Below, one piece after another: positions 13,669 through 22,374 of a DNA stretch of 41,491 nucleotides. The stretch is from Paramuribaculum sp. GTDB lineage: Bacteria > Bacteroidota > Bacteroidia > Bacteroidales > Muribaculaceae. Where the stretch lies: the NCBI GenBank assembly GCA_029052015.1, contig JAIDJW010000155.1, positions 1 through 41,491 of the forward strand, written 5' to 3'. The position numbers and the translations under genes were made by a program. The notes beneath the pieces are model-generated. The model saw only the letters and a list, made by a program, of their open reading frames with translations, was not told where the DNA came from and did no database searches. How positions within the stretch are numbered: the first letter of the stretch is position 1; every line of letters begins with the position of its first letter.

Positions 13669-14994
13669 ATGGACAACAACGATAGACTAAATATGGACTA
13701 CATGGCGGAGCAGTTTGAAAAATCCGCCAGAGAGAAACAAAACCTCATATACATCAAGGCAGTGGGTGTAGGTGGCGGTGGCAGCAACGCCGTCAACTAT
13801 ATGTACAACCAGGGCATCGAGAATGTGGCCTTTGCGGTGATAAACACCGATTTTCAGGCTCTCAACTCTTCGCCGGTGCCCTGCAAGGTGCTTATCGGCA
13901 GCGGCCTCGGCGCGGGAAATAAACCTGATGTGGCACGTGAGGCAGCAGAGCAGGATATCGCCAAAATCGAAGCTCTGTTTGAGGACAATACGCAGATGGT
14001 GTTCATCACCGCCACCCTCGGCGGAGGCACCGGCACCGGCGCCGGTCCTGTAGTGGCCCGCGTAGCCAAGGAGAAGGGTCTGCTAACTATAGGCATAGTC
14101 ACCATACCTTTCTATTTCGAGGGCGACAGCAAGATTCTCAAGGCTCTCGACGGCGTGGATGAGATGAGAAATCATGTCGACGCCCTGCTGATAATCAACA
14201 ATGACCGCCTTGTGGAGATATATGCCGACCTTGACTTCTTCAACGCTCTGGCGAAGTCGGACGACACTCTCGCCACCGCCGCGCGCTCTATCTCCGAGAT
14301 AATAACATCAAAGGGTCACATGAACCTCGACTTCCGCGATGTGGAGACAACCCTGCGCAATGGCGGCGCGGCTATCATAAGCACCGGCTACGGTGAGGGT
14401 GAAAACCGTGTGACAAAGGCTATTGAAAATGCTCTTGACTCGCCGCTGCTGAAAAACCGCGATATCTTCGGCTCGAAAAAGCTGCTCTTCAACCTCTATT
14501 TCTCCGAAGAGGCGACAAACAAATTCCGCATGGGCGAAATGCAGGAGTTTACCACCTTTGTCAAGACCATCGACTCGAAGGTTGATGTTATCTGGGGCGC
14601 CGCGGTAGACAATACCCTCGGCGAGCAGGTGAAGGTGACTCTTCTTGCCTCCGGTTTCGAGGAGGAGGACAGCCGCGAGCGCTTTGCCGAGCCCCAGGCG
14701 GTTGAGGAGCGACCGCGGTCTACGTACAATGATCCCCAGGGCGCGCCGGACATAGCCAAAATCCGTAAGGAATACGGAGGAAAGGTCGATATCTACGGCA
14801 CCAACTACATAATCCTCACTCCCGCCCAGATGGACGATGACAAGGTGATAGAGGTACTTGAAACCAGCCCTGCCTACAAGCGCGACAAGAAGGTTGTTGA
14901 GGGTGTCAGAAAAGCCGCTCCCGCTTCAGGCGCTCCTGCCGCGCAGGTTGCCGCATCGCGCAATCCGTCCGGAGGCATGGATATATCTTTCTAA
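13669..14994 (+). CDS. ftsZ: Cell division GTPase FtsZ
   Basis: Tubulin-like GTPase that forms the division ring. The 441-residue product has the nucleotide-binding GVGGGGSNAV segment (33-42), the tubulin signature GGGTGTGAG (118-126) and the T7 catalytic loop (NLDFRDV, about 222-228). A variable linker (about 335-425) is followed by a short conserved C-terminal peptide ending GGMDISF, the likely FtsA contact. It is the last gene of the dcw unit on this strand. Its stop codon overlaps the stop of the convergent AraC-family gene, with no space for a separate terminator. Confidence 0.98.
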   Translation: MDNNDRLNMDYMAEQFEKSAREKQNLIYIKAVGVGGGGSNAVNYMYNQGIENVAFAVINTDFQALNSSPVPCKVLIGSGLGAGNKPDVAREAAEQDIAKIEALFEDNTQMVFITATLGGGTGTGAGPVVARVAKEKGLLTIGIVTIPFYFEGDSKILKALDGVDEMRNHVDALLIINNDRLVEIYADLDFFNALAKSDDTLATAARSISEIITSKGHMNLDFRDVETTLRNGGAAIISTGYGEGENRVTKAIENALDSPLLKNRDIFGSKKLLFNLYFSEEATNKFRMGEMQEFTTFVKTIDSKVDVIWGAAVDNTLGEQVKVTLLASGFEEEDSRERFAEPQAVEERPRSTYNDPQGAPDIAKIRKEYGGKVDIYGTNYIILTPAQMDDDKVIEVLETSPAYKRDKKVVEGVRKAAPASGAPAAQVAASRNPSGGMDISF

Positions 14995-15890
14995 GATTTC
15001 TGATATTCGGTCGGCGACATGCCGGTGATGTGCTTGAAGTACTTGCCGAAGCTCGACTGATTTGTGAAATTCAATTCGTATGCAATCTGCTGCACATTCT
15101 TGCCCGAGAATCGCAGCAGATTTTTTGCTTCGAGTATCACGAACTCGTCAATCCACTGCGCTGCGCTGGTGCCGGTAGCTTCCTTTACAATCAGCGACAG
15201 ATATTTGGGCGAGATATATAGCTTTGAGGCATAGAACGCCACCGAGCGCTCGCTGCGGTGATACTGATGCACAAGCCGCATGAAGTCCTTGACATAGCTT
15301 GACCTGCGTGACCGTGATCTTTCATGAGTGGGAGGGATATGACGCCTGGCAAAGAGAATAAGCTGGTATATGGCGGCGGCGACAAGATTACGCGATATGC
15401 TTCTCACATATTTTTCATCGTCATTATCGCGGGTATTGGAATGTATAAGCTCAAAATACTTCACCATCAGGTCTGTTTCCTCCTGGGTCAGTTCAAGTAC
15501 CGATGCCGGGGTCGGGCTGAACCGTCCGGTGTTGAGCATATTTATATCAAGGTTTATGTCGCGTAGAAACTCAGTGGATACAATGAATACGTATGAGTCG
15601 ATGGTTTCGGGGTCAACCTCATGCACATGAATCAGGCAGTCAGGACCAAACACCGCTATGGTGTTGGGTGTGAGGATATGGCTTGTCAGATTTACGTCAA
15701 GAGTCACCTTGCCTCCTAGAACCACGGCTATCATCACCCCGTTGAGACGCGTCGGGGCAGTTGTCATATCAGAAAACGGACGAGCTTTGGTGAAGCGTGA
15801 AAACACATAGTCGGAGCCTAATCTGCTGAACTCTGACGAATACTTTTCAAACTCATCCTTGGTGAGTTTTATGCCTTCGGGATTGCTCAT
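14991..15890 (-). CDS. AraC-family transcriptional regulator
   Basis: From the chosen start the product has 299 residues: an N-terminal cupin-like sensing half (about 1-160) and a C-terminal AraC/XylS DNA-binding domain of two helix-turn-helix units in about the last 100 residues (ASKLYISPKYLSLIV, then QIAYELNFTNQSSFGKYFK and GMSPTEYQ). No ligand can be named. It is divergent from the beta-propeller/NVEALA locus, 217 bases away, which makes that locus a plausible target; this is inference. The frame is open to 15968, but the extra 26 residues would run through the -7 box at 15916-15923, so the ATG at 15890 is preferred. Confidence 0.9.
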   Translation of the reverse strand: MSNPEGIKLTKDEFEKYSSEFSRLGSDYVFSRFTKARPFSDMTTAPTRLNGVMIAVVLGGKVTLDVNLTSHILTPNTIAVFGPDCLIHVHEVDPETIDSYVFIVSTEFLRDINLDINMLNTGRFSPTPASVLELTQEETDLMVKYFELIHSNTRDNDDEKYVRSISRNLVAAAIYQLILFARRHIPPTHERSRSRRSSYVKDFMRLVHQYHRSERSVAFYASKLYISPKYLSLIVKEATGTSAAQWIDEFVILEAKNLLRFSGKNVQQIAYELNFTNQSSFGKYFKHITGMSPTEYQKS

Positions 15891-15915
15891 GATTGCTGGA
15901 TTGGTATTTATGACG

Positions 15916-15923
15916 CAAATGTA
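15916..15923 (-). promoter_or_regulatory. Bacteroidota -7 box for the AraC-family gene
   Basis: TACATTTG on the minus strand matches the Bacteroidota -7 consensus TAnnTTTG, 25 bases before the chosen start codon. I see no matching TTTG at the usual distance upstream, so the -33 part is weak. Confidence 0.5.
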
Positions 15924-16049
15924 GAGATTTTTATCAATATTTCCTGAAAATGTCCCTATTAGTCGCAAAAAATAAGAAATTTATTCCAATGTAAGGGCGG
16001 TGAAACCACCATAACATGGGTCCGCAGGGATGATGTCATGTAATGAGCT

Positions 16050-16081
16050 GTTTCGCTGAAACGGAAAAATCGCTATCTTTG
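16050..16081 (+). promoter_or_regulatory. Promoter of the first propeller gene with overlapping inverted repeat
   Basis: TATCTTTG at 16074-16081 fits the -7 consensus and lies 26 bases before the start codon. TTCG at 16052-16055 sits 18 bases upstream as a possible -33 element. That element lies inside a 13-bp inverted repeat, GTTTC-gct-GAAAC (16050-16062), which is well placed to be an operator. The 19-bp core at 16064-16082 recurs exactly at 21270-21288. Confidence 0.6.
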
Positions 16082-16107
16082 CGTCTGACAACCAATATCT
16101 AAGCGCC

Positions 16108-17289
16108 ATGTATAAAATCTTTGCAACATTAGCCATACTACTCTTATCAGTCCTGATTTTCGGCTCTTGTCAGAGTAAGTCGGAAGAACTGGAAAAAGGT
16201 CGGATAATCCACGTTGATATTGAGCCTCAAGAAGTTGCGGTTGAAGATTTGTTTGACCGTATAGAAGTCGTGCCATTGGAAACAACTGATAGTGCATTAC
16301 TTGTCTTTATTGATAGGGCGAGGGTTGACAAGAATGAAATATTCCTGAATGACCGCAGGACAATGAAGGTATATCGCTTTGATGACAAAGGTCGGTTTAA
16401 GAATACAATCGGTCGTATAGGTCAAGGTCCGGGGGAGTATGCGCAGGCGTATGATTTTGATGTTGATCCATATAGTGGGAACGTGTTTATAATTACACCA
16501 TACGGTGATGTGAACGAGTATGACCGGAATGGCAATTATTTGCAGAGTTTTAATCCTCCATCAAAACGATACTCTGAAATAAACCGAGTGGATGACAGTC
16601 ATTGGCTGACATGGGAGGGTTGCTATATAGGTGAGAACGCTATTTCGGTTTTCAATAATGATTTTACTGAAGAAGTGTTTGCGCCAAATATCCCACGCCA
16701 CATGGCGAATACTGCATACTCGTCTCCTAATTTTTTTCATAATGGCGGAGAACTGTATGCAACTTTCAGTTATGACAGGAATGTCTATAAAGTGACTGCT
16801 GACTCGATGATGATAGCATATACCTGGGATTTCGGCTCTGAGAATCTTGATGAGAAGTCTCTTGAAAAGCATGACATCAATCCATACGAGGCAACTGAGG
16901 AGGTTAATATGCACAGGACATGGAATTTTATAAGTGATACATCGATAAAGTGCTCTTTGGAGAGACAATCATTGAATTCCAGATATAACTTCGTAGTTTA
17001 TTATTATACTGTAGAAATGGATCCGGTGACAAGGAGAGGAGTCGGTCCGATTGTGTTTTATAATGTAATCCATGATAGAAAAACCGGGAAAAGCTATGTG
17101 TTTGACAAGCTGACAAACGGAATGTCAATATCTGAATTCTTATTGATGACAGATGACTATATGCTTGTTATGATACGGCCTAATGAGCTTCCGCTGTATG
17201 AGGAGTATCTGCCGGAGGGGATGAAGCTGAGCGATATTGATCCGGATGATGACAATCCCGTGCTCGCCCGCTTCTATTTCAAGAAATGA
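16108..17289 (+). CDS. 6-bladed beta-propeller lipoprotein 1
   Basis: The 393-residue product has a signal peptide ending in a lipobox-like FGSC (Cys21), so it is expected to be a lipoprotein. The rest is the 6-bladed beta-propeller fold common in Bacteroidota: the entry segment EDLFDRIEVVPLET (46-59), the hallmark IGRIGQGPGEY (101-111) and repeated FD-x-YD strand signatures. No enzyme motif is visible and the ligand is unknown. The last 33 residues (starting LPLYEEYLPEGMKLSD) are identical in all three propellers of this locus, while the central blades differ strongly. It has its own promoter, and no NVEALA gene precedes it; one follows. Confidence 0.85.
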   Translation: MYKIFATLAILLLSVLIFGSCQSKSEELEKGRIIHVDIEPQEVAVEDLFDRIEVVPLETTDSALLVFIDRARVDKNEIFLNDRRTMKVYRFDDKGRFKNTIGRIGQGPGEYAQAYDFDVDPYSGNVFIITPYGDVNEYDRNGNYLQSFNPPSKRYSEINRVDDSHWLTWEGCYIGENAISVFNNDFTEEVFAPNIPRHMANTAYSSPNFFHNGGELYATFSYDRNVYKVTADSMMIAYTWDFGSENLDEKSLEKHDINPYEATEEVNMHRTWNFISDTSIKCSLERQSLNSRYNFVVYYYTVEMDPVTRRGVGPIVFYNVIHDRKTGKSYVFDKLTNGMSISEFLLMTDDYMLVMIRPNELPLYEEYLPEGMKLSDIDPDDDNPVLARFYFKK

Positions 17290-17401
17290 ATATTGTGTGC
17301 TCAAGCGTGTTAAAGTTGTGTTAAAAATGGCATTTGACTTTCAATTAGTTTCTTGGATTCGTACATTTGCGATTATTAACCCAATAAATCATATAACATG
17401 A
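17191..17401 (+). repeat. 211-bp perfect direct repeat, copy 1
   Basis: This block covers the last 99 bp of propeller gene 1, the whole 108-bp spacer with its promoter, and the first four bases of the NVEALA gene. It is identical to 18740-18950 (offset 1549). Beyond it, the next 100 bp carry only three mismatches (17402, 17436, 17462) before the copies diverge. Exact identity through a non-coding spacer points to recent duplication or gene conversion. Confidence 0.95.
17307..17369 (+). promoter_or_regulatory. NVEALA-1 promoter with 11-bp-spaced direct repeats
   Basis: TACATTTG (17362-17369) is a good -7 box 28 bases before the peptide start. Upstream, GTGTTAAA occurs twice (17307-17314 and 17318-17325), 11 bp apart and so on the same face of the helix, as operator half-sites often are. 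No -33 TTTG lies at the usual distance (the nearest, 17333-17336, is 25 bases away), which would suit an activator-dependent promoter. Confidence 0.5.
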
Positions 17402-17676
17402 GAAAAGTTATCCTTATAGCAACTGTCGCTCTTCTTGGTACAGCATGGAGTATGCTGAACTTTCAACCCACCCAGGAATCCAGGTGTGAACGCAATAATG
17501 TCGAAGCTGTTTCGGACAATGAGCTTCCTCCTGTAGAAATCACTTGTTGTGCATCTCCAATGGTAGGAAATGGTCAGTGTTGGGATGAGGTTGTTGATAG
17601 AGACGGAATTATGGTGGGCTGCCGCTATAGAGGGAATATAAATTTCCATTGTATGGGTGAAATATATCAAGAATAA
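17398..17676 (+). CDS. NVEALA-family exported cysteine-rich peptide 1
   Basis: The 92-residue product has a basic start and a hydrophobic segment (about 4-20), as in an export signal, then the NNVEAV motif (33-38) that defines the NVEALA family of short Bacteroidales proteins. Six cysteines follow or flank it (30, 50, 51, 61, 75, 85). Residues 1-44 match peptide 2 except for two changes (R2K, F22S); the rest differs, although the cysteines are retained. The function is unknown: a secreted peptide, a surface ligand or a natural-product-like precursor are all possible. The stop lies 4 bases before propeller gene 2, so the two are co-transcribed. Confidence 0.8.
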   Translation: MRKVILIATVALLGTAWSMLNFQPTQESRCERNNVEAVSDNELPPVEITCCASPMVGNGQCWDEVVDRDGIMVGCRYRGNINFHCMGEIYQE

Positions 17677-17680
17677 TGCA

Positions 17681-18838
17681 ATGCGACAATTATTAGTGTG
17701 TGTCGCTATCTGCTTTATAGTTTGTTCATGTGGGCAATCCGTTGTAGATTCAGCAGATAGAATACATCATGTGGACATAGAGCCTCAAGAAGTTGCGGTT
17801 GAAGATTTGTTTGACCGCATAGAGGTTGTGCCGTTAGAGACCAATGACAGCTCGCTGATATATTACATATATAATTCCTGTGTGAGCGACAGTGATATAT
17901 ATATACAGGATTTCAGGGCAATGGTGGTTTATCGTTTCGGTGCGGATGGCAAGTTCAAAAACCGCATCGGACGCATAGGGCAGGGACCGGGTGAGTTCAC
18001 ATTAGCATACGGTTTTGATATTGATTCTGACAAGAATAGGGCATATATAGTATCTGCGTTTGGTAAGGTATATGAGTATTCTCTCTCCGGTGAATTTATT
18101 TGTGACTATGAGCTGCCAAGTCGTCTTGCATACGATAATATAAAGATTGTTGATGACAGCACTTTTATGACTTGGTCAAGCTGTAGCTTTGAAGAGTTGT
18201 CGGGAACGATTCTTGGAAATAATTTTGATATGGTTCTTTATGTTCCGCAGCTATCGAGCCATCTGGCAGACAATCTTTATACTCAGCCAAGTTTTTTTAG
18301 AACTGATAATGTTCTTCATGTGGGTCAGTGCTATAACAGAAAAGTATATGCTGTAACCCGTGATTCTGCTATCGTTGATTATGAATGGGATTTCGGTAAA
18401 GATAACGTCCCTGACGAAGCTCTCGCAAAACATGATATTAAATCTGGCAGTGAAAATGCAGACACATCCAATGATCCTTCGGATATATTCCGTGCGGATC
18501 GTTCCATAACTTCATATCTGTACGGTCATAATTCAAATGATTTATATGATTATGTGACTTTTCGTGATGACTCAAAGTTTGATGGCGATAATAACAAGAG
18601 AATTCATTATAAGGTATTCTGCGACAAAAAGACAGGAAAGAATATAGTGTTTGACAAACTGTCAAACGGCATGATGAGATTCGGTCCTATGGATATGACA
18701 GAGGATTATGTTCTTTATCAGATTCCATGGAGGGAGTTGCCGCTGTATGAGGAGTATCTGCCGGAGGGGATGAAGCTGAGCGATATTGATCCGGATGATG
18801 ACAATCCCGTGCTCGCCCGCTTCTATTTCAAGAAATGA
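17681..18838 (+). CDS. 6-bladed beta-propeller lipoprotein 2
   Basis: The 385-residue product has a signal peptide with a lipobox-like VCSC (Cys17). It contains the same entry segment as propeller 1 (EPQEVAVEDLFDRIEVVPLET) and the IGRIGQGPGEF hallmark; a 38-bp DNA stretch in this entry segment (17780-17817) is identical to 16222-16259. The middle blades diverge and the last 33 residues are identical again. The frame is also open from an ATG at 17657 inside the NVEALA gene; the ATG at 17681, 4 bases past the peptide stop, gives a compact signal peptide and is preferred. The ligand is unknown; translation in tandem with NVEALA-1 suggests that they act together. Confidence 0.85.
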   Translation: MRQLLVCVAICFIVCSCGQSVVDSADRIHHVDIEPQEVAVEDLFDRIEVVPLETNDSSLIYYIYNSCVSDSDIYIQDFRAMVVYRFGADGKFKNRIGRIGQGPGEFTLAYGFDIDSDKNRAYIVSAFGKVYEYSLSGEFICDYELPSRLAYDNIKIVDDSTFMTWSSCSFEELSGTILGNNFDMVLYVPQLSSHLADNLYTQPSFFRTDNVLHVGQCYNRKVYAVTRDSAIVDYEWDFGKDNVPDEALAKHDIKSGSENADTSNDPSDIFRADRSITSYLYGHNSNDLYDYVTFRDDSKFDGDNNKRIHYKVFCDKKTGKNIVFDKLSNGMMRFGPMDMTEDYVLYQIPWRELPLYEEYLPEGMKLSDIDPDDDNPVLARFYFKK

Positions 18839-18950
18839 ATATTGTGTGCTCAAGCGTGTTAAAGTTGTGTTAAAAATGGCATTTGACTTTCAATTAGTTT
18901 CTTGGATTCGTACATTTGCGATTATTAACCCAATAAATCATATAACATGA
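18740..18950 (+). repeat. 211-bp perfect direct repeat, copy 2
   Basis: Identical to 17191-17401. It covers the last 99 bp of propeller gene 2, the spacer with promoter, and the first bases of the second NVEALA gene. Recombination between the two copies would delete or amplify exactly one peptide-plus-propeller unit of 1549 bp. Confidence 0.95.
18856..18918 (+). promoter_or_regulatory. NVEALA-2 promoter with 11-bp-spaced direct repeats
   Basis: Same elements as in front of peptide 1, because the spacer is duplicated: GTGTTAAA at 18856-18863 and 18867-18874, and a TACATTTG -7 box at 18911-18918, 28 bases before the start. Both peptide genes should therefore respond to the same signal. Confidence 0.5.
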
Positions 18951-19234
18951 AAAAAGTTATCCTTATAGCAACTGTCGCTCTTCTAGGTACAGCATGGAGT
19001 ATGCTGAACTCTCAACCCACCCAGGAATCCAGGTGTGAACGCAATAATGTGGAAGCAGTATCAGATAATGAGCTTCCGGAAGTAGAGATAAGTTGTTGTG
19101 CGTCACCAGAAATTGGCGATGGGCAGTGCTGGGCGCCAATATATAGATACCCTCAAACCCAAACGGGTTTTATGGGTTGCACATACGTTGGGATGATTAC
19201 TAACCATTGTGTGGGACCTAAATTCGTTCCGTAA
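18947..19234 (+). CDS. NVEALA-family exported cysteine-rich peptide 2
   Basis: The 95-residue paralogue of the peptide at 17398 has the same hydrophobic signal (about 4-20) and the NNVEAV motif (33-38). Cysteines are at 30, 50, 51, 61, 78 and 88; relative to peptide 1 only the segment between Cys61 and the fifth cysteine changes length (17 against 14), and the last interval stays at 10. Codons 35-44 differ from peptide 1 by six synonymous changes and no amino acid change, which indicates selection on the leader protein sequence rather than only recent copying. The C-terminal third is unrelated. It lies 10 bases before propeller gene 3. Confidence 0.8.
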   Translation: MKKVILIATVALLGTAWSMLNSQPTQESRCERNNVEAVSDNELPEVEISCCASPEIGDGQCWAPIYRYPQTQTGFMGCTYVGMITNHCVGPKFVP

Positions 19235-19244
19235 ATAACTAAGA

Positions 19245-20399
19245 ATGAAATTCATTTGTGCTATAGTTGCATGTATCCTTTTATACTCTTGCAGTTCCAC
19301 CTTATCTGTCGAGGATGAAAGAACTATAGATATCGAATTAATTCCCCAGAAAGTTGTATTTGAAGATATTTTTGGTTATATAGAAGTTGTGCCGCTTGAG
19401 ACTAATGACAGCTCATTGATAACCTGGGATTTTCATAAAGAACTAACGGATTCGGATATTTATATTTTTGATTTTGGAGCGAATGCCGCTTTTCGCTTTA
19501 GTCAGAAGGGTACTTTTAAGAACTGTATCGGTAAAAAAGGACAAGGTCCCGGGGAATATCCGTTTGCCTACGGTTTTGATGTAGATGCTAAAAGCAATCG
19601 AGCATATATTGTATCCGCATTGGGAACTTTGTATGAATATACTCTGTCAGGTGAGTTTGTCAGAGAAAGTCAGTTGCCGTGGCGATATAATTATCATCAG
19701 ATTCATCAGCTCTCTGACGGCAATTGGGCGTCGTGGACTTATAGCGATCTGGAAAATCCTGCGCTATCAATAATAAATCGGGAGAGGGACTCTGTTCTGT
19801 GCTCATTCGATGTGCCTGTACACATCGCAGACAGAATGTTTTCACAGCCAAAATTCTTTAAATATAATGGAGACTTATTTGTCGGTTTCGGATTTGATAG
19901 AAATGTTTACCACTTGAGTTCAGATACAATGACTGTCGCATACACATGGGATTTTGGAGAAAAAAACATCTCTGAAAATATGCTTGCCGAATATGATAAG
20001 ATGCGTGATGGTGGCGATTGGACAGATTTACAGGATAATTTTAGAAATGACAGCAGACGAATTTATCAGTTGTCGTCACATTGCTCAAACAACCGATACG
20101 ACTATGTGCTCGTTTATTATCTTGAAAAAATATATGACCTCCCTGAAAACGAACGAAAGTCAGAGGGGTATCATATATTTCATGACAAGAAAACCGGTAA
20201 AACATACGTTGTCGATAAGTTCAGCAATGGCTTGACCGGTATGGATGTATATGGCATGACGGATGATTATATGCTTTGCAGAATAGAGATGGAGTCATTG
20301 CCGCTGTATGAGGAGTATCTGCCGGAGGGGATGAAGCTGAGCGACATTGATCCGGATGATGACAATCCCGTGCTCGCCCGCTTCTATTTCAAGAAATGA
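19245..20399 (+). CDS. 6-bladed beta-propeller lipoprotein 3
   Basis: The 384-residue product has a signal peptide with lipobox-like LYSC (Cys16). The entry segment is more diverged (IPQKVVFEDIFGYIEVVPLET) than in propellers 1 and 2, and the hallmark reads IGKKGQGPGEY. The C-terminal 33 residues are identical to those of the other two, and the last 102 bp of DNA differ from copy 2 by a single base (20345). Its ATG follows NVEALA-2 by 10 bases, and its stop overlaps the next gene by ATGA. It is the last propeller of the array; a different gene, not a peptide, follows. Confidence 0.85.
   Translation: MKFICAIVACILLYSCSSTLSVEDERTIDIELIPQKVVFEDIFGYIEVVPLETNDSSLITWDFHKELTDSDIYIFDFGANAAFRFSQKGTFKNCIGKKGQGPGEYPFAYGFDVDAKSNRAYIVSALGTLYEYTLSGEFVRESQLPWRYNYHQIHQLSDGNWASWTYSDLENPALSIINRERDSVLCSFDVPVHIADRMFSQPKFFKYNGDLFVGFGFDRNVYHLSSDTMTVAYTWDFGEKNISENMLAEYDKMRDGGDWTDLQDNFRNDSRRIYQLSSHCSNNRYDYVLVYYLEKIYDLPENERKSEGYHIFHDKKTGKTYVVDKFSNGLTGMDVYGMTDDYMLCRIEMESLPLYEEYLPEGMKLSDIDPDDDNPVLARFYFKK
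20298..20399 (+). repeat. Third partial copy of the propeller 3' end
   Basis: These 102 bp match 18737-18838 with one substitution (T to C at 20345, silent). Identity ends exactly at the stop codon: the downstream spacer and promoter of the other two copies are missing, and the DUF1573 gene begins instead. Confidence 0.9.
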
Positions 20400-21253
20400 T
20401 GCGTGTTGCAGCGGTTATATTGCTGTTGGTGTGTCTTTGCGCCGGTTGCGGAGGCGGTGAAGCCGCGCAAAGTGACGCGGCGCTTCCCGACTCAATAGTG
20501 TTTCCGGAGTCGCTGGAATTTCGCGGCGCAACTCGTCAGCGCATAGACTATACGATTCCGCAGGGGAGATATAATGTGGTCTGCTATCAGGATTCATTGG
20601 CTTGCCTCGGCTGCCACTTCTCTCTGGAGCAGTGGCAGGAGTTTGCCGATGAGCTTGATTCGCTCTATCCCGGCAAGGCGACCGTAACTCTTATTTTCTC
20701 TCCGCGGTTCAAGCGCGAGGTGCGGTCGGCGATTCAGATGAGCGGCTATAACCGCCCGGTGGCTTTTGACATAGGCGACGCGTTTATGAAGAGTAACGGC
20801 ATCAAGGCTACGGCCGGTAGCTTTGTGGCGCTTGTCGACTCTGTCGGCAGGGTGGTGTCGACGGGCAATCCGGTCGGTGACGTGAGCGCGGAGTGGCGTT
20901 TCAGAAACATAATCGGAGGAAACGGGGCGCGTGAGCTTGCTGCCGGTGCTCCGGCAGCGGAGATGGTGCCCGAGGTGGTGAATCTCGGTGAATTTGACCA
21001 TAGCCTTGCGCGCGACACAACAGTGGCGATTGTCAACACGGGCGCGGAGCCGATGTGCATCCTTAAAGTAAAGGTGTCGTGCAACTGCACCGCCGTTGAC
21101 TGGAGTCGCAAGCCTATAGAGCCGGGCGACACGACCTTTATGCGGGTGGAGTACAAGAGCGACCGTCCGACCGAGGTTGACAGGAATATTCTCGTGTATC
21201 TGAGCGGTGGCAAGCGCCCGCTGGAGCTGCGGATTGTCGGCACAGCAAAATAG
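20396..21253 (+). CDS. Thioredoxin-like/DUF1573 lipoprotein
   Basis: The 285-residue product is a predicted lipoprotein (lipobox LCAGC, Cys18). The N-terminal half resembles a degenerate thioredoxin-like or AhpC-like fold, with a CLGC pair (about residues 70-73) in a position like the redox CxxC. The C-terminal part (about 190-285) is a DUF1573 Ig-like domain (VNTGAEPMCILKVKVSCNC, then IEPGDTTFMRVEYK). The start overlaps the propeller 3 stop (ATGATG/TGA; either ATG is possible), so it belongs to the same transcript. Its CxxC could serve the cysteine-rich peptides made in the same locus; that is inference. Confidence 0.8.
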   Translation: MMRVAAVILLLVCLCAGCGGGEAAQSDAALPDSIVFPESLEFRGATRQRIDYTIPQGRYNVVCYQDSLACLGCHFSLEQWQEFADELDSLYPGKATVTLIFSPRFKREVRSAIQMSGYNRPVAFDIGDAFMKSNGIKATAGSFVALVDSVGRVVSTGNPVGDVSAEWRFRNIIGGNGARELAAGAPAAEMVPEVVNLGEFDHSLARDTTVAIVNTGAEPMCILKVKVSCNCTAVDWSRKPIEPGDTTFMRVEYKSDRPTEVDRNILVYLSGGKRPLELRIVGTAK

Positions 21254-21269: not shown

Positions 21270-21288
21270 GAAAAATCGCTATCTTTGC
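21270..21288 (+). promoter_or_regulatory. -7 region for the flippase-like gene
   Basis: TATCTTTG at 21280-21287 fits TAnnTTTG, 17 bases before the start at 21304. The 19-bp stretch 21270-21288 is identical to 16064-16082 in front of propeller gene 1. No good -33 element is visible. Confidence 0.5.
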
Positions 21289-21303: not shown

Positions 21304-22374
21304 ATGGAAGAAAGCAAGAGTCAATATAGCGGTGAGAATAGAAAGCGCGAGGCGTGGTGGCGGCTCCTGTTCAAGTACGGGGTGCCGCTGGTCATAACCG
21401 TGGGGCTGTGCTATCAGCTTTTTGCGGAGGTGCCTCTGGGCGAAATGATAGGAATCATCAAGGCCGACTGCAATTTTTTATGGATTGCGGCGGGTATGGC
21501 TCTGAGCATCCTCAGCCATGTGATTCGCGCGCTGAGATGGCGCATACAGCTTTACGCTCTTGATGTCAGGCCGCCGCTCGGTGTGCTGATTCTGAGTATA
21601 TTCGGCACCTACGCCGTCAATCTGGTGCTTCCGCGTCTTGGCGAGCTGTGGCGCACGGGATATATAGCGCAGCGTCAGCGGGCATCGTTCGCAACCGTTT
21701 TTGGCTCGATGATATGCGACAGGCTGTCAGACACGCTCACGGTGTTTCTGCTGCTGCTTGTCACTCTCGGGCTGGCTCATCCGCAGATAATGAGTTATCT
21801 GCAGCAGAACCCCGAGCTTTATCACAAAATCAGCGCCATACTCTCCTCGCCTTGGATATGGAGCCTGATACCCGCGCTGATTCTGATAGTATGGCTGATA
21901 TGCCGTGCGTTTCCGGACAATAAAATAGTTGCCGGAGTGAAAAAGCTCTGTGCGGGCATCTGGCAGGGCTTCGCGGTAATCGGCAGGATGAAGGGCAAAG
22001 GAATGTGGGTGGTGTACACGGTGCTGCTGTGGAGCTGCTATTTCTTTCAGCTCTATCTGGCGTTTTTCGCTTTTCCGGCAACTGCGGCTGTGGTGTCGGA
22101 CTACGGAATCACGGCAGTGCTCGTGTGCTTCGTGCTGACGAGCATATCTATGGCGGTGCCCTCCAACGGTGGCATAGGTCCCTATCAGTGGGCGCTGATA
22201 TTCGGTCTGAGCATGTACTCGGCAGGTATTCCGGAGCTGACAAAGGAGTATGCGATGTCGTTTGCCAATCTGGTGATGGGCTGTCAGACGCTGCTGCTCA
22301 TAGTTCTCGGTATAATAACTTTTGTGGTGCTGTCGGCAGACAGGCGCCGCAACAATATCCCCGCTACAAAATGA
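21304..22374 (+). CDS. Lysylphosphatidylglycerol synthase TM-region / flippase-like integral membrane protein
   Basis: The 356-residue polytopic protein has about eight membrane segments, with the signature features of the LPG_synthase_TM (YbhN/AglD-like) family: an early segment followed by LRALRW-like basic residues (VIRALRWRIQL, about 77-87), the NLVLPRLGELWRTGYI stretch (about 106-121) and PSNGGIGPYQW (about 286-296). It lacks the soluble synthetase domain of MprF, so it is more likely a lipid or lipid-linked substrate transporter of unknown specificity. Its stop overlaps the next gene (ATGA). Confidence 0.8.
   Translation: MEESKSQYSGENRKREAWWRLLFKYGVPLVITVGLCYQLFAEVPLGEMIGIIKADCNFLWIAAGMALSILSHVIRALRWRIQLYALDVRPPLGVLILSIFGTYAVNLVLPRLGELWRTGYIAQRQRASFATVFGSMICDRLSDTLTVFLLLLVTLGLAHPQIMSYLQQNPELYHKISAILSSPWIWSLIPALILIVWLICRAFPDNKIVAGVKKLCAGIWQGFAVIGRMKGKGMWVVYTVLLWSCYFFQLYLAFFAFPATAAVVSDYGITAVLVCFVLTSISMAVPSNGGIGPYQWALIFGLSMYSAGIPELTKEYAMSFANLVMGCQTLLLIVLGIITFVVLSADRRRNNIPATK

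Follow-up and report, generated by a model that had tools for sequence, protein, structure and literature searches.

The window, the whole 41,491-nt stretch of DNA from the gut bacterium Paramuribaculum sp. that was analysed, contains an array in which three propeller lipoprotein genes alternate with two genes for cysteine-rich peptides and precede the gene of a Trx-like/DUF1573 lipoprotein (Table 1). The gene set, order and cysteines described in the first-pass annotation were all recovered, and its tight spacings of 4, 10 and −4 bases agree exactly with the coordinates. Both propeller-to-peptide gaps measure 108 bases. The prop2 gene was assigned an ATG start; an alternative GTG at 17657 would overlap pep1. 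The array is best explained as two cassettes, each made up of a promoter-like site, an exported cysteine-rich peptide and a propeller lipoprotein, together with an orphan propeller and a redox/DUF1573 lipoprotein. PADLOC models of anti-phage defence gave no match to six window proteins at E 0.01.

Table 1. Features of the peptide–propeller array and its flanks
Feature	Coordinates	Strand	Description
AraC-type regulator	14991..15968	−	PF12833 (8e-22); site resident, judged outside the system
19-bp direct repeat, copy 1	16064..16082	+	Includes a promoter-like site (TAnnTTTGC); precedes prop1; marks left array edge
Propeller lipoprotein 1 (prop1)	16108..17289	+	PF17170; orphan, without preceding peptide gene
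102-nt homogenised 3′ tail	17188..17289 (prop1)	+	Copies at 18737-18838 and 20298-20399; 98-100% identity
108-bp spacer, copy 1	17290..17397	+	Promoter-like TACATTTGC at 17362-17370
Peptide 1 (pep1)	17398..17676	+	N-terminus hydrophobic; NNVEAVS motif; C-terminal half rich in cysteine
Propeller lipoprotein 2 (prop2)	17681..18838	+	PF17170; putative partner of pep1
108-bp spacer, copy 2	18839..18946	+	Identical to copy 1; promoter-like site at 18911-18919
Peptide 2 (pep2)	18947..19234	+	pep1-like leader (97% nt), differing cysteine-rich C-terminal half
Propeller lipoprotein 3 (prop3)	19245..20399	+	PF17170; putative partner of pep2; modelled as propeller
Trx-like/DUF1573 lipoprotein	20396..21253	+	CxxC (CLGC); C-terminal DUF1573 (SCNC)
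19-bp direct repeat, copy 2	21270..21288	+	Identical to copy 1; promoter-like site before next resident gene; right edge of array

The three propellers belong to Pfam family PF17170 (E values of 7e-39, 8e-34 and 1e-38 for prop1, prop2 and prop3; 117–134 bits against a gathering score of 22.9) and share only 44–47% protein identity. A structure model of prop3, of moderate confidence (pLDDT 64.8, pTM 0.71), is closest to the solved propeller BF0058 of Bacteroides fragilis (4raa; 19% sequence identity). The DUF4221 protein BVU_1028 (3s9j), also a solved propeller, is 8% identical in sequence, and neither entry title names a function. Propellers of the window type were found in 4 of 247 genomes of the family, the window's own included (E 1e-25); elsewhere, a single Muribaculaceae MAG (isolate Lapin-026, by its name from a rabbit) accounts for the two named loci that have them. 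A search of viral contigs for the propeller, Wzy_C and signal peptidase genes found none of them.

Each window peptide contains six cysteine residues, one of which precedes the NVEA motif, so that only five would be left after cleavage there. The NVEALA label attached to the peptides at first is weak by Pfam and holds for a broader leader family. In the Pfam search, pep2 scores 15.5 bits, below the PF14055 gathering score of 27 bits, and pep1 is unmatched. Of the 170 window ORFs, a wider NVEALA-type profile, built from 57 sequences of other loci and none from the window, matches pep1 and pep2 alone (E 1.3e-7 and 1.2e-6), and the peptides are filed here as NVEALA-type and not as PF14055 members. 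The leader, LSDLxLxN[VI]EAL, bears what we take to be a resemblance to double-glycine leaders (LSxxELxxIxGG). The double glycine of class II bacteriocin and bacteroidetocin leaders was not found: [VI]EAL[AS] stands in its place, and the next residue is glycine in 4% of 89 cases. The putative cleavage motif lies ∼24 residues past the hydrophobic stretch, which is far for ordinary signal-peptidase cleavage and counts against the reading preferred below.

At the nucleotide level, an exact 211-nt run (17191–17401 and 18740–18950) spans the propeller tail, the spacer and the peptide start. Identity drops at the NVEA codons after this run, which places a mosaic break at the border between leader and mature part. 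dS is saturated, and positive selection is therefore not claimed. The TAnnTTTGC motif occurs 17 times in the window versus 6.3 ± 2.6 expected, and the four matches to a two-part promoter pattern (TTTG gap TAnnTTTG) all lie outside the array. For the 19-bp repeat at the array edges, 0.05 matches are expected allowing up to three mismatches. At 10 of 23 congener loci, the AraC gene lies directly beside the counterpart of the next resident gene (at 21304). These ten congeners have no array at this position, and it was probably inserted here. The divergent AraC gene assigned to the system at first is thus present but does not belong to it. Its candidacy as the array regulator was rejected on the site comparison and on its absence at the other modules searched, where the only family match besides the window copy is a distant one (9e-16; locus L081), ∼7 kb from a peptide.

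Adjacency of peptides and propellers, for which the first-pass annotation had suggested a survey, far exceeds chance. A propeller directly follows 83 of 106 evaluable NVEALA-type peptides (44/51 and 39/55 in two peptide sets) and all five peptides found in the window's own genome. This recurrent order does not favour the pairing of a peptide with its upstream propeller. In 16 modules with both, the downstream propeller has the better mean rank (0.22 versus 0.32 for the upstream one), but the two are indistinguishable in homogenised arrays. The unit would be a peptide and its downstream propeller with their own promoter-like site, which would pair pep1 with prop2 and pep2 with prop3 and leave prop1 as an orphan.

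The proposed coupling of variable peptide to variable propeller is borne out by sequence matching. The mature part of the peptide predicts its own propeller, with 33 of 89 in the top 5% against a shuffled maximum of 14 (34/78 versus 10 in a strict subset). In contrast, the leader is not predictive (4/89 in the top 5%), and the match of mature peptide to Trx protein is at chance level (mean rank 0.498, 41 modules). Within the window, pep2 obtains a rank of 0.00, and pep1, whose best match is weak, fails the test with 0.90, which counts against the reading preferred below. Across genera, then, it is the mature peptide and the propeller after it that are matched, unlike the leader and the Trx protein. 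The matching represents co-inheritance, which does not prove binding. Joint inheritance of a variable effector and a variable partner is the pattern of the effector/protection-protein class.

Tandem duplication and gene conversion of neighbours from two lineage-expanded families, with no functional coupling, would account for the homogenised tails and spacers of the window and for the multi-copy status of both families. Such an origin is extremely improbable, given that the peptide-then-propeller order recurs in 13 families despite strong sequence divergence, that the match between mature part and propeller persists and that further genes co-occur. Alternatively, the propeller could be a maturation or export partner, either holding the peptide in the periplasm during redox, peptidase and Wzy_C action or displaying it, with a separate final role of the peptide in adhesion, matrix or host contact. 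The fixed order, the inheritance as a cassette and the median gap of 18 bp between peptide and next gene are consistent with such a partner. At some loci, an additional protein of 183–215 aa separates the peptide from the propeller, as if the propeller were general. Some peptides have a protein of this size after them in the propeller's place, which weighs against the preferred reading. Acidic residues after the lipobox cysteine are an export signal for surface lipoproteins, and at least three such residues just after the cysteine occur in only 2 of 80 lipobox propellers, which argues against surface exposure. However, a general scaffold would need no matching to the mature peptide over the leader, and this role is considered somewhat unlikely.

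The last lipoprotein of the array matches DUF1573 (PF07610; E 5.8e-19, 68.4 bits against a gathering score of 26.1). Of its first description, the CxxC and DUF1573 parts stand; a thioredoxin domain is only suggested by a StoA model (E 0.009), with no Pfam thioredoxin match, and a relative at locus L055 matches AhpC-TSA at 2e-5. Of 89 peptide–propeller modules, 41 have such a redox lipoprotein no more than three genes away. It is a frequent companion, although often placed before the peptide, which does not agree with the closing position proposed at first. According to PMC6671954, Bacteroides lack general disulfide machinery, and a dedicated redox gene therefore fits. The original interpretation is partly supported, for adjacency, matching and the redox companion but not for AraC regulation or upstream pairing.

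Shared machinery overlooked in the earlier reading, comprising signal peptidase I, Wzy_C and a transglutaminase-like lipoprotein, lies elsewhere in the same genome, where one contig (C176) carries propeller, S26, Wzy_C and transglutaminase-like genes together. Among genes within six of a peptide, transglutaminase-like proteins were found at 14 of 59 loci, signal peptidase at 10 and Wzy_C at 8. A TPR lipoprotein lies near 8 of the 59 loci. The catalytic serine and lysine of the signal peptidase (S26) are invariant in 10/10, and the C176 copy matches PF10502 (1.4e-25). Catalytic C232 and H265 of the transglutaminase-like proteins are invariant in 8/8; the Pfam transglutaminase match is above the cut-off only at L145, below it at L181 and absent at L129 and C176. 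The value of this gene as a specific marker is weakened by its presence in all 9 Pfam-NVEALA genomes but also in 9 of 52 others, most of which show a different recurring context without peptides that counts against the preferred reading. In one of these nine others, G032, peptides were found later. The Wzy_C subfamily occurs, across the 61 genomes, in the nine Pfam-NVEALA genomes and in G032, where its presence led to the search that uncovered peptides missed by Pfam. At the order level, Wzy_C is present in 16 of 20 peptide genomes versus 20 of 373 (p 2.5e-15; 1.6e-11 without seed genomes). The failure to find it in the remaining 4 peptide genomes, or a peptide beside it in 12 of 17 other genomes examined, counts against the preferred reading. 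Overall, the peptides co-occur in these genomic comparisons with signal peptidase I, a Wzy_C/TPR membrane protein and a transglutaminase-like lipoprotein.

Two further accounts draw on these neighbours. Wzy_C and the transglutaminase-like protein could couple the peptides with glycans or with one another in a variable surface coat, in line with the close Wzy_C–peptide co-occurrence, the conserved transglutaminase-like catalytic residues and the acidic, Gly/Ser-rich mature parts; such a polymer leaves one matched propeller per peptide unexplained and is distinctly unlikely. A pheromone system, in which the propeller senses a secreted peptide and feeds a regulator, would suit the specific matching and the TPR lipoprotein, presumably a regulator. 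This role is unlikely: the AraC gene is a site resident without counterpart at the other modules searched, TPR proteins were seen in 3 genera only, one genome may hold up to 14 peptides, and a Pfam search of the window propellers finds no signalling domain.

The preferred reading, to which a probability of roughly 40% is assigned, is an undescribed Bacteroidales peptide system. Polymorphic disulfide-rich peptides with NVEALA leaders would be matured by a dedicated signal peptidase, the redox/DUF1573 lipoprotein, a Wzy_C ligase-like enzyme and a transglutaminase-like protease. Each would be neutralised or received by its own β-propeller lipoprotein, and diversity would arise through swapping of the cassette of mature peptide plus propeller, with the leader before it and the propeller tail after it conserved. 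The precursor would be exported through its N-terminal hydrophobic segment and cut at the conserved N[VI]EAL[AS] site, either by an S26 peptidase dedicated to it or by the transglutaminase-like protein. The Trx/DUF1573 protein would make or repair disulfides, the Wzy_C protein, from a family of O-antigen ligases that presumably also includes O-oligosaccharyltransferases, might add a glycan or anchor the product, and each propeller would bind its own peptide in the periplasm. Most PF17170 propellers of the window's genome lack a recognisable peptide, which counts against this reading.

As for function, we tentatively regard the products as polymorphic secreted antagonistic, bacteriocin-like peptides, with the partner providing self-protection and orphan propellers guarding against the peptides of others. 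Hints of antagonism are the number of peptides per genome (up to 14), their patchy presence in Bacteroidales, their carriage on plasmids and a fulvocin-related cluster. Around a cysteine-rich-ended fulvocin C-related protein (NF033852) of Bacteroides finegoldii (NZ_OY725911) lie transglutaminase-like, DUF1573, TlpA and Wzy_C genes, and in a genome of the window's family (G069) another lies between pieces of transglutaminase-like and Wzy_C genes. These proteins differ from the window peptides in their length (234–246 aa) and in having neither an NVEALA leader nor a paired propeller. Counted against antagonism are the restriction of the fulvocin link near Wzy_C to two clusters, the EAVS motif of the window peptides in place of EALA, followed by five cysteines, and the mildly acidic mature peptides (mean net charge −2.4), from which many membrane-active bacteriocins differ in charge.

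Bacteroidetocins, as described in PMC6671954, are likewise disulfide peptides of ∼40 residues from Bacteroidales, and a thiol oxidoreductase is dedicated to them. They differ in their 15-residue leader of the double-glycine type and in their peptidase/transporter, and no immunity gene is evident. NVEALA-type peptides instead have a ∼43-residue leader with a hydrophobic segment and an ALA-type site, and are accompanied by a signal peptidase and by a lipoprotein matched to the peptide. Plasmid pPvulCL10_1 (NZ_CP096966), from strain CL10T00C06 of Phocaeicola vulgatus, a species common in the human gut, is annotated with NVEALA, 6-bladed β-propeller, signal peptidase I, O-antigen ligase and transglutaminase genes. 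It shares with the window the gene families, the peptide-then-propeller order and an adjacent redox gene, with the machinery behind; its parts lie together, whereas the window's machinery is on another contig (C176). In a plasmid survey, Wzy_C was present in 5 of 72,556 records. In the open-licence PMC literature, the plasmid cluster was found annotated gene by gene and not described as a system. No paper there was found to name the multi-gene system, which may be described elsewhere, or to use the term NVEALA; matches to DUF5128, DUF4934, PF17170, PF14055 and PF16288 were taken as accidental from their titles (Plasmodium or enzyme topics), and locus tags returned PMC10434189 only. The window array appears to belong to a dispersed, patchily found and apparently undescribed Bacteroidales system.

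If this reading is correct, some Bacteroidales, including a plasmid-bearing human Phocaeicola, would be armed with as many as 14 secreted peptides in a genome, whose genes annotation lists as nothing more than unconnected orphan families. Many 'NVEALA' and '6-bladed propeller' genes would then acquire a function, the extra signal peptidases and O-antigen-ligase-like genes beside them would be explained, and microbiome research would gain a new set of peptides and of specificity pairs. P. vulgatus CL10T00C06, isolated from a healthy human, carries the cluster on its plasmid, and a barcoded transposon (RB-TnSeq) library and RNA-seq data have been published for it (PMC13114119), so that this strain would be a tractable organism in which the main predictions are directly testable.

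The array lies between ftsZ and a flippase-like gene (the 21304 gene). The order proposed in the first-pass annotation, prop1-pep1-prop2-pep2-prop3-CxxC/DUF1573 with an AraC-type gene on the opposite strand, is borne out by the gene coordinates.

Features of the array and its surroundings, with positions in the window
Feature	Position	Description
ftsZ	13669-14994	left of array; named by eye from sequence
AraC-type gene	14991-15968	strand opposite to array
prop1	16108-17289	propeller lipoprotein
pep1	17398-17676	exported peptide
prop2	17681-18838	propeller lipoprotein
pep2	18947-19234	exported peptide
prop3	19245-20399	propeller lipoprotein
Trx	20396-21253	CxxC/DUF1573 lipoprotein
21304 gene	starts 21304	flippase-like gene; right of array

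The array genes are mosaics of conserved and divergent segments. The three propellers are 44-47% identical as proteins, but their final 102 nt are 98-100% identical. An exact 211-nt run, present in two copies, spans the propeller tail, a 108-nt spacer and the peptide start. The pep1 and pep2 leaders share 97% DNA identity, but this falls away abruptly on reaching the NVEA codons, which are conserved in protein and not in DNA. The variable pieces are thus the mature peptide and the propeller after it, flanked by a conserved leader and a conserved tail. The motif TAnnTTTGC, a form of the Bacteroidetes -7 promoter element, occurs 17 times in the window (6.3 ± 2.6 expected), including sites upstream of the AraC gene, prop1, pep1, pep2 and the 21304 gene, and is a convenient promoter marker for this genome. 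The sites before prop1, pep1 and pep2 suggest the transcription units prop1, pep1-prop2 and pep2-prop3-Trx.

The 21304 gene is present in 32 of 34 genomes of the genus. In 10 of the 23 congener loci fetched, an AraC gene (53-73% identical) adjoins it with no array between, and ftsZ is visible within the flank in three of these ten; the other 13 have no AraC gene within ~1.5 kb and are uninformative on AraC-array linkage. The AraC gene, listed with the array in the first-pass annotation, is thus not tied to it. The interval from AraC to the next gene is 144-333 bp in the nine congener loci measured, each with a visible TAnnTTTG site. Insertion of the array at this site is a simpler reading than an ancestral array lost from the congeners. 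An identical 19-bp promoter-bearing repeat flanks the whole array (16064-16082 and 21270-21288), as if recombination at the resident promoter, or its duplication, had brought the array in.

Among 61 relatives, 9 have Pfam NVEALA matches (E 1e-3); at order level, 20 of 393 genomes do (E 1e-5), and a single genome has up to 14. Regions around them were fetched, genes were called by a simple script and peptides were found by our own profile. The NVEALA-propeller adjacency, for which a Bacteroidales survey had been proposed, recurs: a propeller directly follows the peptide on the same strand in 44/51 cases in the first set of regions and 39/55 in the second, one contig-end peptide being left out of each count. 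Four of the seven first-set exceptions are followed directly by 342-384 aa proteins with lipobox-like starts, which are probably diverged propellers; the other three precede a 202 aa protein, an 89 aa protein and a 357-aa protein 1.1 kb off. The 16 second-set exceptions precede an unrecognised protein (nine), a second peptide (five), a Trx gene (one) or an opposite-strand gene (one). One second-set peptide call (E 8e-3) resembles a DUF3244 protein. Alternative partners besides propellers may exist. A 194-215 aa protein occupies the propeller's place in three regions (L130, L140 and L146), and in genome G032 (region L202, 11433-13481) each of three tandem peptides precedes a 183-aa secreted protein, not a propeller.

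The assembly of the window's own genome is fragmented (210 contigs, 87% complete). Five peptides were found in it, each of them upstream of a propeller (contigs C63, twice, C133, C43 and C128). On C43 and C128 the partner scores as a TolB-like propeller, on C43 just below the cut-off. Propellers without peptides are common in this genome: 15 of its 19 PF17170 matches lie outside C63 and C133, and none of the 13 of these that the script could resolve has a recognisable peptide upstream.

Across 89 peptides, the motif consists of N (95%), V/I/A/L, E (96%), A (96%), L (91%) and A or S (84%), preceded by LSDL and with E at the third position past it in 77%. The leader has a median of 43 aa and the mature part 41 aa, with a mean net charge of -2.4 and four (37 peptides), two (20), five (11), three (10), six (10) or one (1) cysteines. 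The pattern A-x-A/S/G/T fits 84/89 peptides. The motif lies ~24 residues past the hydrophobic stretch, a distance that makes an ordinary cut there unlikely and points to a separate processing step. Both pep1 and pep2 have a Cys right before NVEA and a doubled Cys after it; a relative from genome G005 lacks both. The two extra cysteines may pair, a curious arrangement if cleavage takes place at the motif.

The pairing of variable peptide with variable propeller was upheld in 89 peptide-partner modules drawn from the surveyed regions (25 genomes, 16 genera and 13 families). Partners were recognised propellers or unrecognised 300-420 aa proteins, with a minimum length of 250 aa and a gap of no more than 400 bp. 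Left out were peptides >175 aa, those directly upstream of a second peptide, of a Trx gene or of a gene on the other strand, and one peptide lacking the motif. For each mature peptide, we took the best match in another genus and noted where its propeller ranked. The mean rank was 0.251 vs 0.489 after shuffling, and 33/89 propellers fell in the top 5% (at most 14 in shuffles), or 25/89 (at most 15 in shuffles) with matches restricted to another family. Choice by leader placed 4/89 in the top 5%. A strict subset gave 34/78, and when each genome contributed a single module, the mature part outperformed the leader in 183/200 draws. The mature peptide did not predict Trx (mean rank 0.498; 41 modules with Trx within three genes). 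The signal is clear, though not universal, and comes from peptides with recognisable relatives: at mature-peptide similarity of at least 0.2, 22/31 modules were in the top 5%. In the window, the best match of pep2 agrees with its propeller (rank 0.00) and the weak best match of pep1 disagrees (rank 0.90).

Genes recurring at most six genes from a peptide in 59 loci encode transglutaminase-like (TG-like) proteins (14 loci, 9 genera), signal peptidase I (S26/lepB; 10 loci, 7 genera), Wzy_C/TPR proteins (8 loci, 7 genera), TPR lipoproteins (8 loci, 3 genera; some of these may be Wzy_C/TPR proteins picked up by the TPR profile) and DUF3244-like proteins (4 loci, 2 genera). The last, exported proteins of 118-123 aa, sometimes precede the Trx/DUF1573 gene (regions L052, 3667-4023, L150 and L073). 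Ser and Lys are kept in 10/10 signal peptidases, and Cys and His in 8/8 TG-like proteins. Regions L181 and L150, and the contig of G014 to which L077 and L205 belong, each hold a full machinery set; in the window's genome, propeller, S26, Wzy_C and TG-like genes sit side by side on contig C176. The Wzy_C profile matches 10/61 relatives, namely the nine Pfam-NVEALA genomes and G032, a Pfam-negative genome in which inspection prompted by this match revealed four NVEALA-type peptides by our own profiles (E 1e-10 to 2e-3); the co-occurrence has p = 1.4e-6 without the four of the nine genomes that supplied profile seeds. At order level, Wzy_C occurs in 36/393 genomes (16/20 peptide genomes and 20/373 others). 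Of the latter 20, 17 were inspected: peptides lie beside Wzy_C in five and none were found there in 12. No peptides were found in 12 control regions around TG-like genes. TG-like genes also have a second recurring context (L177, L178, L180, L162 and L187), ~406 aa, TG and 144 aa, mostly then 540-559 aa, with no peptides nearby.

Named examples extend to plasmids. Plasmid pPvulCL10_1 of Phocaeicola vulgatus CL10T00C06 is annotated with NVEALA, 6-bladed propeller, redoxin, lepB, O-antigen ligase, hypothetical protein, transglutaminase and propeller; its opposite strand bears another NVEALA-propeller pair. Our profiles detect four pairs, along with S26, TG-like and Wzy_C genes, in a P. massiliensis plasmid record. 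For B. thetaiotaomicron, published tables list BT0662 (O-antigen ligase), BT0663 (hypothetical), BT0664 (6-bladed propeller) and BT0667 (lepB), with values of 0.11-0.44 beside their iron effects, none of which is therefore taken as significant (PMC10434189). A B. finegoldii record (L257, 2582-13335), labelled a plasmid but carrying prfB and perhaps chromosomal, groups TG-like, DUF1573, fulvocin C-related (NF033852, 4.9e-32) and TlpA genes, with Wzy_C 6 kb on. In the related cluster of genome G069 (L239), the TG-like and Wzy_C genes are broken, and a fulvocin-related gene lies between their pieces. NF033852 was found in 2/20 Wzy_C genomes searched. Fulvocins are counted among the myxobacterial peptides and referred to as Myxococcus fulvus bacteriocins (PMC8708641). 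The Muribaculaceae MF13079 mobilizable plasmid (CP061010) has a TG-like gene and, by eye, Wzy_C-like pieces with a transposase-like frame between.

The cassette structure, the matching, the co-occurrence and the absence of the array from its site in ten congeners are demonstrated at the level of sequence. That they reflect one real secreted-peptide system is given a probability of about 0.85. In the proposed mechanism, the array would have been inserted at its site, and the peptide precursor would be exported, cut at the motif, have its disulfides handled, be modified and be bound by its propeller. Antagonism with self-protection is the likeliest function, although held tentatively; a propeller acting as maturation partner of its peptide ranks second and is rather doubtful, a peptide pheromone is improbable, and a surface polymer is the least probable of the four. 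A Bacteroidales RiPP survey covers GG-leader, transporter-linked clusters and makes no mention of propeller, transglutaminase or signal peptidase (PMC10352776). The families are themselves named, and no description of the whole system was found in the literature searched. The mode of the system, in which a secreted disulfide peptide has its cognate partner, is known; new, as far as found, is the parts list.
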